Shown here piece after piece: positions 11,595 through 27,328 of a stretch of 28,776 nt of DNA (position 1 is the stretch's first letter; each line of letters opens with the position of its first letter). The position numbers and the translations under genes are program-made. Below the pieces are notes generated by a model. It made no database searches. It was given only the letters and a program-made list of their open reading frames with translations, and was not told the origin of the DNA. The stretch lies in IMG/VR virus record IMGVR_UViG_3300032893_000230, positions 1 to 28,776 of that record; one strand, written 5' to 3'. Source of the stretch: a virus.

Positions 11595-11715
11595 TCCTAA
11601 AACTCCTTTTTTGTTAAATTGGTGGTCAATCGAATCAAGCATAAGATAGTGTGTTCATCAATTAATATAAAATTAATTTCACTTCAAATGCTAAAATCCA
11701 ATCGACCATAATATT

Positions 11716-11787
11716 TTGCGGGGGCTGGAATCGAACCAGCCGTGACGTGCTTATGAGACACGCGCGTTACCACTTCGCCACCCCGCA
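11716..11787 (-). tRNA. tRNA-Met (anticodon CAT)
   Basis: A full cloverleaf on the minus strand. Acceptor TGCGGGG/CCCCGCA, D stem GCG/CGC, anticodon stem CGTGT/GCACG with loop CTCATAA, T arm GCTGG-TTCGATT-CCAGC, discriminator A. No CCA is encoded. The CAT anticodon could also be an Ile tRNA after lysidine modification, which cannot be excluded. Confidence 0.9.
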
Positions 11788-11813
11788 ACTGCGCCTGATT
11801 CGCGCCCCACTCA

Positions 11814-11877
11814 GGCTCATGGGATGAGGGCTACCGAATTAATAGGACCCTGCGCTTAACGGTTTATTCCCCGAGCC
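11814..11877. repeat. Nested inverted repeat beside tRNA-Met
   Basis: GGCTC (11814-11818) pairs with GAGCC (11873-11877). Inside, AGGG pairs with CCCT. It fills most of the 91-base gap between tRNA-Met and the phosphoesterase stop. The tRNA-like size is suggestive, but no T loop or anticodon loop can be drawn. Confidence 0.3.
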
Positions 11878-11878
11878 G

Positions 11879-12547
11879 TCACGGAACAACATCGATTACA
11901 GTCGGAGCATTCTGATATCTATACATATAGTTCAGCGCTGCTACGTTGTGAAACATTTTATATCCAATTTGCCAATCTTTTCCACCATGGTCGTGTATGT
12001 GTCCGAAGATGTGATGCTTTAGGTTTGGCAATTGCATAACGCGATCCAATAATGTCTTGCTTCCGCATCGATCCGGAATGCCGGTTTCTTTGTCGACTTC
12101 ATCTTTATTCGTATCCAAGATGCCAAATGGCGGACCATGGGTAATGAGCACTTGGGTGTCATCTGAAATCGCTTCCCAATGAAGTGCAAGATCGTCTTCT
12201 TCTTTCATGAACGCCCAGTTATAAAACTGATTCACCCAGGGACTTCCCCAGAATTTAATTCCTTCGAGTTCCACTCCGCTATCCTGAAGGTAAATGACAT
12301 CTCTGTCGAAATGGGACTTAAGGATAAGTTGCCTATCGCTCTCCAAGCCGAAGTCATGATTGCCTGCGATGAAGATACGATGCTTAAAGCGTTCCTTGAG
12401 ACTTTCAAACCACTTACCAACGCTGATGAAATCATAATAATTCCCTCTTGGGGTAAGATCGCCTGCATGAATAAGGATATCTCCATCTGGAATGGGCACT
12501 TGCTTGTGCTTGCTATGCGTATCAGAAAGGCAGACCAATCTAACCAT
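11879..12547 (-). CDS. Metallophosphoesterase (MPPED-like)
   Basis: 222 residues, single calcineurin-like phosphoesterase domain. Metal ligands are D9 and H11 (SDTHS), D30 (HAGDL), N63/H64 (AGNHD), H137 (ITHGPP) and GHIH (182-185). The ITHGPPFGILD and DRCGSKTLLDRV stretches fit the MPPED1/MPPED2 type, with phosphodiesterase activity likely. It overlaps the upstream zinc-ribbon gene by 8 bases. A second, different phosphoesterase is at 14192-14770. With tRNA genes nearby, RNA-end repair or cleavage of a nucleotide messenger are possible roles, but no substrate can be read from the sequence. Confidence 0.88.
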   Translation of the reverse strand: MVRLVCLSDTHSKHKQVPIPDGDILIHAGDLTPRGNYYDFISVGKWFESLKERFKHRIFIAGNHDFGLESDRQLILKSHFDRDVIYLQDSGVELEGIKFWGSPWVNQFYNWAFMKEEDDLALHWEAISDDTQVLITHGPPFGILDTNKDEVDKETGIPDRCGSKTLLDRVMQLPNLKHHIFGHIHDHGGKDWQIGYKMFHNVAALNYMYRYQNAPTVIDVVP

Positions 12548-12722
12548 TTTCTTCGTCTCTAAGATAAACTTTTCTCGTCAACGAATCTAAAACTCTATTC
12601 CGGCGGCGCTTTTCTGCTTCCCAGGATTCTTTATACTTCGAAGACTCCCGGCAATCTTTGCAATCGAAGATAAATACATAGCCATGAGGACAAGTCTTGC
12701 ATTCTGAAGTCTCCAAGACCAT
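12540..12722 (-). CDS. Zinc-ribbon small protein
   Basis: 60 residues from the ATG at 12722. C-x2-C-P-H-G ... C-x2-C (CKTCPHG and CKDC) suggests one zinc site, followed by a basic Arg/Lys helix. An open frame continues upstream to 12851 but that part is the reverse reading of tRNA-Phe (its NVAQAVEQRT peptide is typical of translated tRNA). The start is therefore placed after the tRNA, though the GAGG before it is very close, so the start remains uncertain. Confidence 0.6.
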   Translation of the reverse strand: MVLETSECKTCPHGYVFIFDCKDCRESSKYKESWEAEKRRRNRVLDSLTRKVYLRDEENG

Positions 12723-12763
12723 TTCCTCATCGCGTCCAAAATAACCCTCAACTGGATAATCAT

Positions 12764-12836
<73 letters not shown>

Positions 12837-12873
12837 TTTATCTTTATTCATGATCTTTCTTCACCTTTTATGA

Positions 12874-12946
12874 TGCCCCCTGAGAGAATCGAACTCCCGC
12901 TCTTTCGCTTACAAGGCGATTGCTTTACCAACTAAGCTAAGAGGGC
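12874..12946 (-). tRNA. tRNA-Thr (anticodon TGT)
   Basis: Cloverleaf on the minus strand. Acceptor GCCCTCT/AGGGGGC with one G-U, D stem GCTT/AAGC, anticodon loop CTTGTAA, T loop TTCGATT, discriminator A. No CCA is encoded. One mismatch (A-A) at the top of the anticodon stem. Confidence 0.9.
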
Positions 12947-14009: not shown

Positions 14010-14238
14010 TGTATTTCTTCTTTAGTTTAAGCGGAAAAAGGTTCCAAACAATACTTCCGCAGTGCTTGCATCTTTTATCTTCCGTCTCCACTAACTCTGT
14101 TCTTTGGCTTACTAAAAAATCTTTCATTCGTTTACTTGCAACAAAGTCGGCAAGCTTATCCAGAAACTTATCGTTAATCTCCTTTTCAGACTTAATGATC
14201 TTCTCGATTCTGTATGAGAGGATTTTCGTTCGTTTCAT
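13933..14238 (-). CDS. Basic protein with CxxC, unknown
   Basis: 101 residues. Long charged N-terminal helix, then C57-x2-C60 (CKHCGS) and a very basic C-terminal tail. A single CxxC pair could bind zinc as a dimer. The start lies 47 bases inside the end of the phosphoesterase gene and has AGAGG upstream. Its own tail overlaps the next gene. Confidence 0.55.
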   Translation of the reverse strand: MKRTKILSYRIEKIIKSEKEINDKFLDKLADFVASKRMKDFLVSQRTELVETEDKRCKHCGSIVWNLFPLKLKKKYNGRHIQNKDKKKVQSAVKRRKPKVS

Positions 14239-14770
14239 GTATATGCCTCTGTTTAACTTGCTGTGCTCGTTTCATCACTTCATCCATGTGAAACGGCTTC
14301 ATATTGTTTTGCTCGAGACAAGCATTGAAGTAACGCTCATCTGGATCTTGATAAGGACCTTTTGTGACGAGCTTTCCGTGTAAGTGCCCGTGTACATTCA
14401 CGCCTGAACGATATCCAAATTCATTTGGATGAATCGGAATATGCGTTAAGGCCAGTACACGATTTAAGAAGAGAGCCCCGTGTAATGAATCAAAATACTC
14501 CAAATAATCAGCAGTGCTAAAGATGTCATGATTACCCAAAATAAGCTTCTTACGCCCGTGGAGTACCTTTGCAAGCCGAAGGCCTTCCCGATTAAAAGCG
14601 AAATCCCCAAGAACATAAACCAAATCAGCAGGACCGATAAGTTTATTCCAATTGTGTATGATTGTGACATTCATGTCCTCCAATGACTGAAAAGGCCTAT
14701 TCACAGGCTCAAACTGCAGCACACGCCGGTGGCCGAAATGAATATCGCTTGTGAACCAAGTTTCACTCAT
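14192..14770 (-). CDS. Metallophosphoesterase (calcineurin-like)
   Basis: 192 residues, single domain. Metal ligands are D9 and H11 (SDIHFGH), D56 (LGDFAF), N80/H81 (GNHD), H110 (ALTHIP), and H129/H131 (GHLHG). It is the short bacterial and phage type, different from the MPPED-like protein at 11879-12547. It overlaps the upstream start region by 8 bases. Substrates of phage members range from nucleotides to RNA ends, and none is indicated here. All core metal residues are present, so it should be active. Confidence 0.88.
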   Translation of the reverse strand: MSETWFTSDIHFGHRRVLQFEPVNRPFQSLEDMNVTIIHNWNKLIGPADLVYVLGDFAFNREGLRLAKVLHGRKKLILGNHDIFSTADYLEYFDSLHGALFLNRVLALTHIPIHPNEFGYRSGVNVHGHLHGKLVTKGPYQDPDERYFNACLEQNNMKPFHMDEVMKRAQQVKQRHIHETNENPLIQNREDH

Positions 14771-14928: not shown

Positions 14929-15234
14929 TTATCCGTAGACGCTCGCCGCTTGCTTTTGACACGTTTCTCCACAATAAATCGCTCCATCTTTAGTTGGTTG
15001 ACCGCATTCAAAACAATCTTCATTTTTACTGAAGGTAATTTTATTCATCATAATCTCTTCGACATAAAGCCTCACGGTCTTGAGTTCCTGCCAACGAATG
15101 TTGAATTCATTCTTTTTTTCTGGATCTTTTTCAGTCTTCGTCATGCATTTATGGCCTTCCATCTCATCTTCGAGGTACTTGACGAAGTTCTTACAGGCAT
15201 GCTCGAAGCCCTTATCCATCTTGGATTTTCTCAT
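14929..15234 (-). CDS. Small protein with C-terminal zinc knuckle
   Basis: 101 residues from the ATG at 15234. An upstream extension to 15315 would read through DnaA boxes and is rejected. The first part is helical and charged. The end, CFECGQPTKDGAIYCGETCQKQ, is a four-Cys zinc knuckle. It is the first gene of the leftward operon, with a DnaA box only 5 bases upstream of its start, so expression and origin use may be linked. Confidence 0.6.
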   Translation of the reverse strand: MRKSKMDKGFEHACKNFVKYLEDEMEGHKCMTKTEKDPEKKNEFNIRWQELKTVRLYVEEIMMNKITFSKNEDCFECGQPTKDGAIYCGETCQKQAASVYG

Positions 15235-15396
15235 AATATTTATCCACAAAAATAGGGGATAAAGCTGGGGATAATTTTTTAAAAACTGTGGATAAGTAAA
15301 GAATGGGATGCACAAACAAACTTATCCAAAAACTATCCCCTAAGGCTTCATTCCCTTAACTTGTTGACTGCTTTAAGCTCTTCGGAGTTATCCACT
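15212..15396. other. Candidate replication origin: DnaA-box cluster
   Basis: Two perfect DnaA boxes (TTATCCACA) at 15240-15248 (plus) and 15287-15295 (minus). Boxes with one mismatch lie at 15266-15274 (minus, TTATCCCCA), 15322-15330 (plus, TTATCCAAA) and 15388-15396 (plus, TTATCCACT). A two-mismatch site is at 15212-15220. An AT-rich stretch (about 15411-15445) follows and could unwind. The cluster sits exactly between the leftward and rightward operons. Confidence 0.65.
15348..15395 (-). CDS. 15-residue leader-type peptide (tentative)
   Basis: AAGGAGG lies 8 bases before a GTG that opens a 15-codon frame, MDNSEELKAVNKLRE. The SD is among the best in the window, yet no longer frame uses it. 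It lies downstream of the leftward promoter at 15452-15480 and inside the DnaA-box region. It may be a leader peptide or a non-functional SD. Confidence 0.3.
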   Translation of the reverse strand: MDNSEELKAVNKLRE

Positions 15397-15408
15397 GCTG
15401 GATCCTCC

Positions 15409-15438
15409 TTAACAATCAAGTAAAATAAAAAATATATT
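15409..15438 (+). promoter_or_regulatory. Rightward promoter TTAACA-N18-TATATT
   Basis: -35 TTAACA at 15409-15414 and -10 TATATT at 15433-15438, each 5 of 6 to the sigma70 consensus. RNA would start near 15445 and drive the gene at 15506. Confidence 0.5.
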
Positions 15439-15446
15439 GTTATAGT

Positions 15447-15466
15447 ACTTGCTTATACCGACAAGT
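15447..15466. promoter_or_regulatory. Possible operator, ACTTG-N10-CAAGT
   Basis: A 5-10-5 inverted repeat covering the leftward -10 box and the rightward start point. A dimeric repressor here would block both promoters. No repressor gene is recognised apart from the HTH protein at 15506. Confidence 0.3.
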
Positions 15467-15480
15467 CCAAATAAAATCAA
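15452..15480 (-). promoter_or_regulatory. Leftward promoter TTGATT-N17-TATAAG
   Basis: -35 TTGATT at 15475-15480 and -10 TATAAG at 15452-15457 on the minus strand with a 17-base spacer. RNA starts near 15446 and runs left across the DnaA boxes into the gene at 15234. It faces the rightward promoter. Confidence 0.5.
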
Positions 15481-15505: not shown

Positions 15506-15727
15506 ATGAAAAAACCTATACAAGACAGCAAGCAACCGAAGAAAGATGTTTATACAGTTGAAGAGTTTTGTCGGCTGGTTCGGATTGGACGAACGCTTTA
15601 TTATAAGCTGATCAAGCAAAAACTTGGTCCAAGGATCATGAAGCTTGGTGAGCGCTCAGTTCGGATCAGTCACGAAGCAGCTGTCAACTGGATGAAGAAG
15701 ATGGAGAGACATCGTTATGAGCAGTGA
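15506..15727 (+). CDS. Excisionase/AlpA-like HTH protein
   Basis: 73 residues. A MerR-type winged helix-turn-helix: VYTVEEFCRLVRIGRTLYYKLIKQ (15-38) is the HTH, and LGERSVRISHEAAVNWMKKM (47-66) the wing and last helix. This is the pattern of AlpA/excisionase (HTH_17) regulators, where the R-I-S-x-E-A-x-x-W signature is typical. As the first gene after the control region it probably regulates the local promoters. No integrase is in the window, so an excision role is unproven. Confidence 0.75.
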   Translation: MKKPIQDSKQPKKDVYTVEEFCRLVRIGRTLYYKLIKQKLGPRIMKLGERSVRISHEAAVNWMKKMERHRYEQ

Positions 15728-23248: not shown

Positions 23249-23664
23249 CAAAAAACTGTAGACGGCATGGACATTTTTTTTAAAATGATAACATTATAAG
23301 TAAAACACACGACCGTGAAAAACCTAATGTATTATGTCGTTTATGCAAAATAGAAAATGATAAAAAAAGTTATCAAAAAAATCGTGAAAAAAGATATCAA
23401 AAAAATCTAGAATGGACTAGAAAAAATAAAGATAAAATGAAATTAATTAGAGCTAGAGTTTTTCAAAAACATAAAGAAAAAATTTATGTAAAAAACAAAA
23501 TAAGATCTAAAAATCATACGGAAAATGCAAGTGATCATTATTTAAGAATGATTCTCTCGCGTAGTGGAAAGTTTGAATATAAAACTATTCCACAATGGCT
23601 TATAGAAATTAAACGAGTATTGCTCCTGATTAAACGTGAATTAAAGGAACTAAAGAAACCTTGA
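23236..23664 (+). pseudogene. CxxHG/CxxC zinc-finger gene with in-frame stop
   Basis: Reading from the ATG at 23236 gives C8-x2-H11-G and, further on, C34-x2-C37, then the family C-terminal block DHYLRMIL ... WLIEIKRVLLLIKRELKEL, all in one frame. The frame is broken only by TAA at codon 16 (23281-23283), right after a run of eight T. It is a one-module member of the family at 17904 and 18598. It is much richer in A and T than its neighbours, a sign of separate origin. A sequencing error or recoding are also possible. Confidence 0.7.
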
Positions 23665-26374: not shown

Positions 26375-26643
26375 CCCTTAAGTAGTGGTAATTTGAAACC
26401 CACAATGGAACCCCCATTTTTGATTATAACCTGCTGTATTCCAAAAATCTGATACCAAAGGCGATTAAAATCATATCCTTCAATGCCGGGCTTCCAAACA
26501 TTATCCTTCAATTCCCAGAGCGTTTTTTCATCATAATGCTGTTCAATCTGTTGTAGATAGCTCATCGCGGTGTTAACCGTTTCTAACCGCCTTCGCTCCA
26601 ATTCCTGGGCTGATTCCCTTGTCTGGTACTTCTCCATGGCCAT
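26371..26643 (-). CDS. Small protein next to the initiator, unknown
   Basis: 90 residues. Helical (SAQELERRRLETVNTAMSYLQQIEQHY), then a Trp/aromatic beta part (FNRLWYQIFGIQQVIIKNGG). Its start lies 71 bases inside the end of the initiator gene. Genes here in other phages often encode helicase loaders, but no motif supports that. Confidence 0.55.
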   Translation of the reverse strand: MAMEKYQTRESAQELERRRLETVNTAMSYLQQIEQHYDEKTLWELKDNVWKPGIEGYDFNRLWYQIFGIQQVIIKNGGSIVGFKLPLLKG

Positions 26644-27328
26644 TCATCCTTTTGCCTTTGAGTTTCGTTAAAATCTCCTTAATGTGCATGTGGCTTGTCT
26701 TGCATTCCGCCTTGTCTAGTTCCTTCAAACGCTCGTGTTCCCGGAGCTGCTGATCAAAATGCTCCCTATCCTTGCGATCCTGTTCACTTTCTTGCTTTTG
26801 ATGTTGTTTTAAAGAAAGCGAGCTCGTAAGCTTTTTATTATAAACATTCTTAGAAGCATTATTAGATGTAGTCCATGGTGAGCTACCCCCTGGTTCACTA
26901 TGACCTACCCCCTGGTTCACTGTGAGCGAGGTGTCCCTCTTCTTAGGGGGAAGGTGGTTCATGGTGAACTGGGTACCACCCAGCTCAACGTGAACTAGGA
27001 TCCAACGGCCTAATGAGTAGTTATTGCTCATTCCGAAATGATTATAAGAAAGTTTGATCATTCTATACTTGACTAAATTTGCTACAGATCTTTTGACAGT
27101 GCTTAGAGAACAACCGCTATATTTTGCGATCTGAGAGTGTGAAAGTTTACAGATAGTTTTGCCGGAACGATAAAATTCCATGTCCAGGACATCGGCTATG
27201 TAGCGCAAGATGGAGCGCGTATTTCCATTAAGTATTTTTTTAACAGACTTTAGTTTAAAGGGACGTTTAGAATTAAGAAAACAAGATACCTGAAAGCCGG
27301 CGGTATGCTGACGCTGGGAGGACTGCAT
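26573..27328 (-). CDS. Replication-initiator-like winged-helix protein
   Basis: 251 residues. N-terminal winged helix: KLSHSQIAKYSGCSLSTVKRSVANLVKYRMIKLSYN (61-96). The region after it (residues about 118-152) is encoded by direct repeats, then comes a basic, Gln/Lys/Glu-rich C-terminal region. N-terminal HTH plus internal iterons is the layout of lambda O-type initiators, where the protein binds repeats in its own gene and recruits helicase. AAGGAG precedes the ATG. No helicase or loader is recognised nearby, so the role is inferred. Confidence 0.65.
   Translation of the reverse strand: MQSSQRQHTAGFQVSCFLNSKRPFKLKSVKKILNGNTRSILRYIADVLDMEFYRSGKTICKLSHSQIAKYSGCSLSTVKRSVANLVKYRMIKLSYNHFGMSNNYSLGRWILVHVELGGTQFTMNHLPPKKRDTSLTVNQGVGHSEPGGSSPWTTSNNASKNVYNKKLTSSLSLKQHQKQESEQDRKDREHFDQQLREHERLKELDKAECKTSHMHIKEILTKLKGKRMNGHGEVPDKGISPGIGAKAVRNG
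26883..26926. repeat. Two 22-bp direct repeats (candidate iterons) in the initiator gene
   Basis: Two adjacent 22-base copies (26883-26904 and 26905-26926) differ at two positions and share CTACCCCCTGGTTCACT. Related half-sites nearby are GGTTCATGGTGAACT (26956-26970, an inverted pair) and GTGAAC (26990-26995). Such repeats inside an O-like gene suggest an initiator-binding origin. Confidence 0.6.

Follow-up and report, generated by a model that had tools for sequence, protein, structure and literature searches.

What does a dense array of DnaA boxes do in a phage genome when it lies between two divergent gene blocks? The question is raised by the IMG/VR record IMGVR_UViG_3300032893_000230, whose entire 28,776 bp, classed as linear and probably a fragment, form the window analyzed here. 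A sequence-only reading had proposed a DnaA-dependent phage origin at this point. We favor, tentatively and with slightly less than even confidence, a different interpretation, in which the cluster is a docking array for host DnaA that is built on a DARS-type core and lies in a divergent regulatory region, and is not an origin of its own.

The portal and terminase of the window resemble those of P22-portal-type phages, and for its capsid gene 44 relatives were found in viral contigs, of which several are about 40 kb long. Genes in the left half run leftward (structural genes, then small genes), those in the middle rightward and those at the right end leftward again, the last block containing genes for lysis, a VRR-NUC nuclease and an O-like initiator. 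As near relatives we used four long contigs that cover the corresponding region (G003, G004, G005, and G007; capsids 85, 85, 83, and 77% identical, respectively). Relatives of the capsid (53% identical), terminase and portal also occur within a 98-kb contig of a sequenced isolate of Legionella maceachernii (L197; NZ_FUXJ01000015), hinting at gammaproteobacterial hosts and prophage forms for this phage family.

Five boxes with at most one mismatch to TTATCCACA fall within 157 bp of the divergent region (Table 1). The sequence-only reading had counted two perfect and three one-mismatch boxes within about 160 bp, and this count holds: 300 dinucleotide shuffles of the window yielded a maximum of three. 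The shorter core TTATCC occurs seven times within 190 bp, again with a maximum of three across 300 dinucleotide shuffles; all seven sites keep this core and vary only at positions 7-9. The adjacent AT-rich stretch and the perfect box close to the leftward start codon, both described earlier, are present as well. Of the face-to-face promoters in the same description, only the rightward one has a counterpart: the promoter scan returned one site on the plus strand and no promoter-like site on the minus strand, with totals no higher than in shuffles. The three one-mismatch boxes all differ at positions 7-9, a type that is rarer in other clusters (26 of 116). This comparison is mildly unfavorable to DnaA, though not decisive, and TTATCCCCA and TTATCCACT are also found inside other DnaA clusters. 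Judged from the sequence, there are many more boxes than chance would produce, and in three of them orientation and spacing are exactly those of DARS boxes I-III; binding of DnaA to the boxes is likely.

Table 1. Features of the divergent region, its flanking genes and the candidate origin, with viral contigs that share the three-box geometry.
Feature	Position	Strand	Remarks
DARS-type core	15240..15274	+	box I (+), N5, box II (-), N3, box III (-)
Box I, TTATCCACA	15240..15248	+	perfect; 5 nt before the leftward ATG at 15234
Box II, TTATCCCCT	15254..15262	-	two mismatches; identical to the second ColE1/pMB1 box
Box III, TTATCCCCA	15266..15274	-	one mismatch
DnaA box, TTATCCACA	15287..15295	-	perfect; outside the DARS-type core
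DnaA box, TTATCCAAA	15322..15330	+	one mismatch
DnaA box, TTATCCACT	15388..15396	+	one mismatch; 12 bp upstream of the rightward promoter-like site
AT-rich stretch	~15405-15440		80-87% AT
Promoter-like site, TTAACA-18-TATATT	15409..15438	+	inside the AT-rich stretch; consensus match only
First leftward gene	14929..15234	-	101 aa; four-cysteine (zinc-ribbon-like) C-terminus; no family above cut-off
First rightward gene	15506..15727	+	73-aa HTH_17/excisionase-like DNA-binding protein; 23.6 bits, below the Pfam cut-off of 27
O-like replication initiation protein	26573..27328	-	PHROG 678, 8102, 277, 1032; E 2e-4 to 3e-3
Intragenic iteron-like repeats	26868..26970	-	22 bp x 2.1 plus partial copies
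AT-rich stretch beside the iteron-like repeats	~26790-26866
Contigs with DARS-type three-box geometry	L329:4761, L236:6011, L245:5446, L290:6379, L240:2295, L261:12183

The known DARS elements share a core in which box I is oriented opposite to boxes II and III and the spacing is equal (PMC5742627; PMC8682772). In E. coli K-12, the sequence of DARS1 (upstream of uvrB) is TTATCCACT-N5-TGTGGATAA-N3-TGTGTATTA, and that of DARS2 (near mutH) is TTATTCACC-N5-TGTGGATAG-N3-TGTGAAGAA. The start-to-start spacings of the window core, 14 and 12 bp, match both elements exactly, and its boxes I, II, and III have 0, 2, and 1 mismatches to TTWTNCACA. None of 150 shuffled windows contained a DARS-type core. 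When seven boxes were scattered randomly across the same stretch, the geometry arose in 350 of 200,000 trials (0.18%), a post hoc figure, as the match was noticed afterwards; 1-2% is the fairer estimate because a few known arrangements would have counted as a match. Furthermore, the E. coli chromosome carries 52 similarly arranged pairs, of which two are established as DARSs (PMC5835720). Hence, the geometry makes a DnaA-reactivating function of the core plausible, not proven. The two mismatches of box II and the lack of the cluster in the four near relatives also weigh against this reading.

The likeness to DARS1 and DARS2 includes the number of boxes, their orientation (+, -, -), their spacing and the position in an intergenic promoter region. 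The window core differs from both in being phage-borne, in its weaker box II and in the extra boxes at 15287, 15322, and 15388. Unlike DARS2, the window seems to have no IHF/Fis region of that kind: a scan for IHF sites near the cluster found a single IHF-like site with one mismatch at 15357(-) and no perfect IHF site. IHF/Fis sites are not needed by DARS1 (PMC5742627). The likeness is scored on E. coli elements and biochemistry, which may not be those of the host.

A three-box DARS has also been described for ColE1 (PMC5835720). The site at the ColE1/pMB1 origin, TTATCCACAGAATCAGGGGATAA, contains the pair TTATCCACA-N5-AGGGGATAA, in which the letters of boxes I and II are those of the window; the N5 spacer is of equal length and 27 of 35 bases are identical. 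From its place by the plasmid origin, we infer that the pMB1 sequence is part of the ColE1 DARS. Position III is poor in ColE1 (four mismatches) and good in the window, and the plasmid element adjoins a Pol I-type origin, unlike the window core. A plasmid of Spartinivicinus ruber (pC, L215:3001-3049) carries a core identical to that of the window in 30 of 35 bases, which is intergenic and upstream of a hypothetical gene.

Dense perfect boxes had been described as a rarity among such phages. This is correct for the four near relatives but not for viral contigs generally: facing pairs of perfect boxes 24-54 bp apart occur in at least 120 stretches, compared with 14 for the letters-reversed pattern, and among the matches listed they often form dense TTATCCACA arrays with up to ten boxes in 160 bp. 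DnaA-box clusters are thus common in viral contigs. In a second scan, for TTATCCACA-Nx-TGGGGATAA, spacer lengths peaked sharply at x=5 (19 of 118). Facing pairs have several preferred spacings, so N5 alone is not special and it is the third box that singles out the DARS geometry. In 6 of 25 facing N5 pairs from other viral contigs, a third box lies at +12 in DARS orientation, and no other third-box offset occurs more than once. As the scans behind these 25 pairs selected for pairs and not for a third box, the recurrence provides independent support. Other viral clusters resemble that of the window in their dense TTATCCACA arrays, some with DARS geometry, and differ in their gene neighborhoods, some lying directly beside helicase or initiator genes. 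DARS-like cores are found near genes for a DnaB helicase (L240, about 160 bp downstream of the gene), a Rep_3 initiator (L230) and an O-like initiator (L261).

The near relatives bear directly on the origin proposal, according to which DnaA would fill the boxes and melt the AT-rich DNA at 15405-15440. Dense boxes adjoining an AT-rich element would suit such an origin. However, the boxes are not conserved in these relatives, which is one half of the refutation that the sequence-only reading had itself set. In G003, G004, G005, and G007 the divergent gaps (128-225 bp) lack a DnaA-box cluster and contain at most one near-box each; a search for other repeated motifs in these gaps found them to be AT-rich. 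GC skew, proposed earlier as a check, does show a local cumulative minimum near 15.3 kb, which favors an origin, but this minimum coincides with the change in gene direction and adds no independent evidence. We therefore dropped skew as an argument. The proposal is left unsupported because the cluster is absent from four relatives, an O-like gene with iteron-like repeats lies 11 kb away, the skew dip follows gene orientation, and the three-box geometry is that of a DnaA-reactivating core and not of an origin. Altogether, an origin at the DnaA cluster is unlikely.

Replication most likely starts elsewhere, at a putative iteron origin within the O-like initiator gene at about 26.9 kb. The PHROG matches that suggest the O-like assignment are weak but consistent, and initiation proteins are encoded in the corresponding neighborhood of G004 and G007. 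The 22-bp repeat within the gene has the highest TRF score of the window (80). Such repeats are clearest in the O-like gene of G007 (L064:952-1824), which has four clear intragenic copies of a unit starting AAGTCGCGT(A/T)GCA, adjoined by a perfect DnaA box. The repeats and the AT-rich stretch beside them are a better origin candidate than the DnaA cluster, and they are likely to be the phage origin. The arrangement recalls lambda, in which DnaA sites lie at an early promoter and a separate origin lies within the O gene (PMC3985674; PMC7466680). In contrast to lambda pR/pO, the window boxes are perfect, dense and in DARS geometry, and the O-like gene is 11 kb away and separately transcribed. 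A single-strand hairpin with a DnaA box as a priming site was also considered and rejected: boxes I and II can indeed form one (z -5.8), as would any two facing boxes.

A plain DnaA-responsive regulatory region, in which DnaA acts as a repressor of the leftward gene and adjusts the rightward promoter without nucleotide exchange, is the alternative that we consider quite possible, if on balance doubtful. It would resemble lambda pR/pO, mioC or the dnaA promoter, and the 14/12 spacing would then have arisen by coincidence or from the close packing of the boxes. The boxes overlap the leader of the leftward gene and flank the rightward promoter-like site, and repression of the leftward gene by DnaA, as suggested by the sequence-only reading, would fit this anatomy. 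Several promoters are DnaA-regulated, and DnaA activates transcription for lambda replication (PMC8203912; PMC3985674); moreover, DARS1 and DARS2 of E. coli themselves sit in promoter regions. A similar layout is seen in L247, a remote relative (terminase 50%, portal 44%) that was found through a search for the N5 pair motif itself. Its divergent gap contains TTATCCACA, TTATCCCCA, and TTATCCACA (an N5 pair plus a third box) just downstream of TTGACA-17-TATATT, and 3 nt separate the last box from an ATG, compared with 5 nt in the window for the corresponding terminase-side gene. The L247 pair, with its third box, counts for the DARS-type reading as well, but L247 has no box III at the DARS position, which, like its discovery through the motif, counts against that reading. 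A purely regulatory role would not account for the precise arrangement of the three boxes or for its repeated occurrence in other viral contigs, and the scan yielded no leftward promoter.

The sites might instead be operators of a phage-encoded regulator with the core motif TTATCC, for example the adjacent HTH_17 protein. The constancy of this core in all seven sites and the neighboring HTH gene point in this direction. However, the same box pairs recur in unrelated viral contigs and in ColE1 plasmids that lack this gene, and the occurrence of TTATCCCCA and TTATCCACT inside other DnaA clusters also speaks against such operators. Single-sequence searches of viral contigs gave no relatives of the two genes that flank the cluster, and a profile search gave only G005, in which the homolog has no box cluster upstream. 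Searches with the HTH protein or the O-like protein returned no phage matches, and DNA similarity to the intergenic region was absent from phages and limited to one weak plasmid match. We regard operators of this kind as very improbable. Hardly credible is a DnaA sink or datA-like inactivator that would titrate DnaA or promote ATP hydrolysis and thereby stop host initiation. The window shares with datA the number of five boxes (PMC4585315), and phage copy number would presumably multiply the effect, but datA, whose boxes lie at set distances from an IHF site, requires IHF, for which the window has no convincing site, and the geometry is that of DARS.

If the cluster is a docking array on a DARS-type core, its action may be sketched from the known elements. 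DARS boxes I and II hold ADP-DnaA head-to-head, which leads to release of ADP (PMC5742627; PMC8682772). By analogy with DARS1, DARS2, and the ColE1 DARS, boxes I and II of the window would bind ADP-DnaA in this way and release ADP, and the apo-DnaA would then reload ATP. More phage copies would mean a larger pool of active DnaA. A role of the array in setting early transcription is also probable, given the position of box I immediately before the leftward start codon and of another box immediately upstream of the rightward promoter-like site. It is conceivable, though we think it unlikely, that phages of several lineages use DARS-type cores to control the host: the site would be multiplied in infection and ATP-DnaA raised, and host and phage replication or DnaA-controlled genes would be pushed out of the cell-cycle program. 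DARS elements have been described from bacterial chromosomes and ColE1 plasmids, and a limited literature search found no title or abstract reporting a phage DARS. If DARS cores do work in phages, a virus could use a small non-coding element to reset which nucleotide the host initiator carries.

Some further features of the window are recorded here. The minus strand carries three tRNA genes (Met, Phe, and Thr) at 11715-12946, in the interval that separates the terminase from the early genes. Two separate genes encode calcineurin-like phosphoesterases (11879-12547 and 14192-14770), and relatives of the latter were found in G002, G003, G004, and G007. Two tandem 24-bp AT-rich units at 23354-23401 lie where the AT content of the window is highest (about 31-33% GC).
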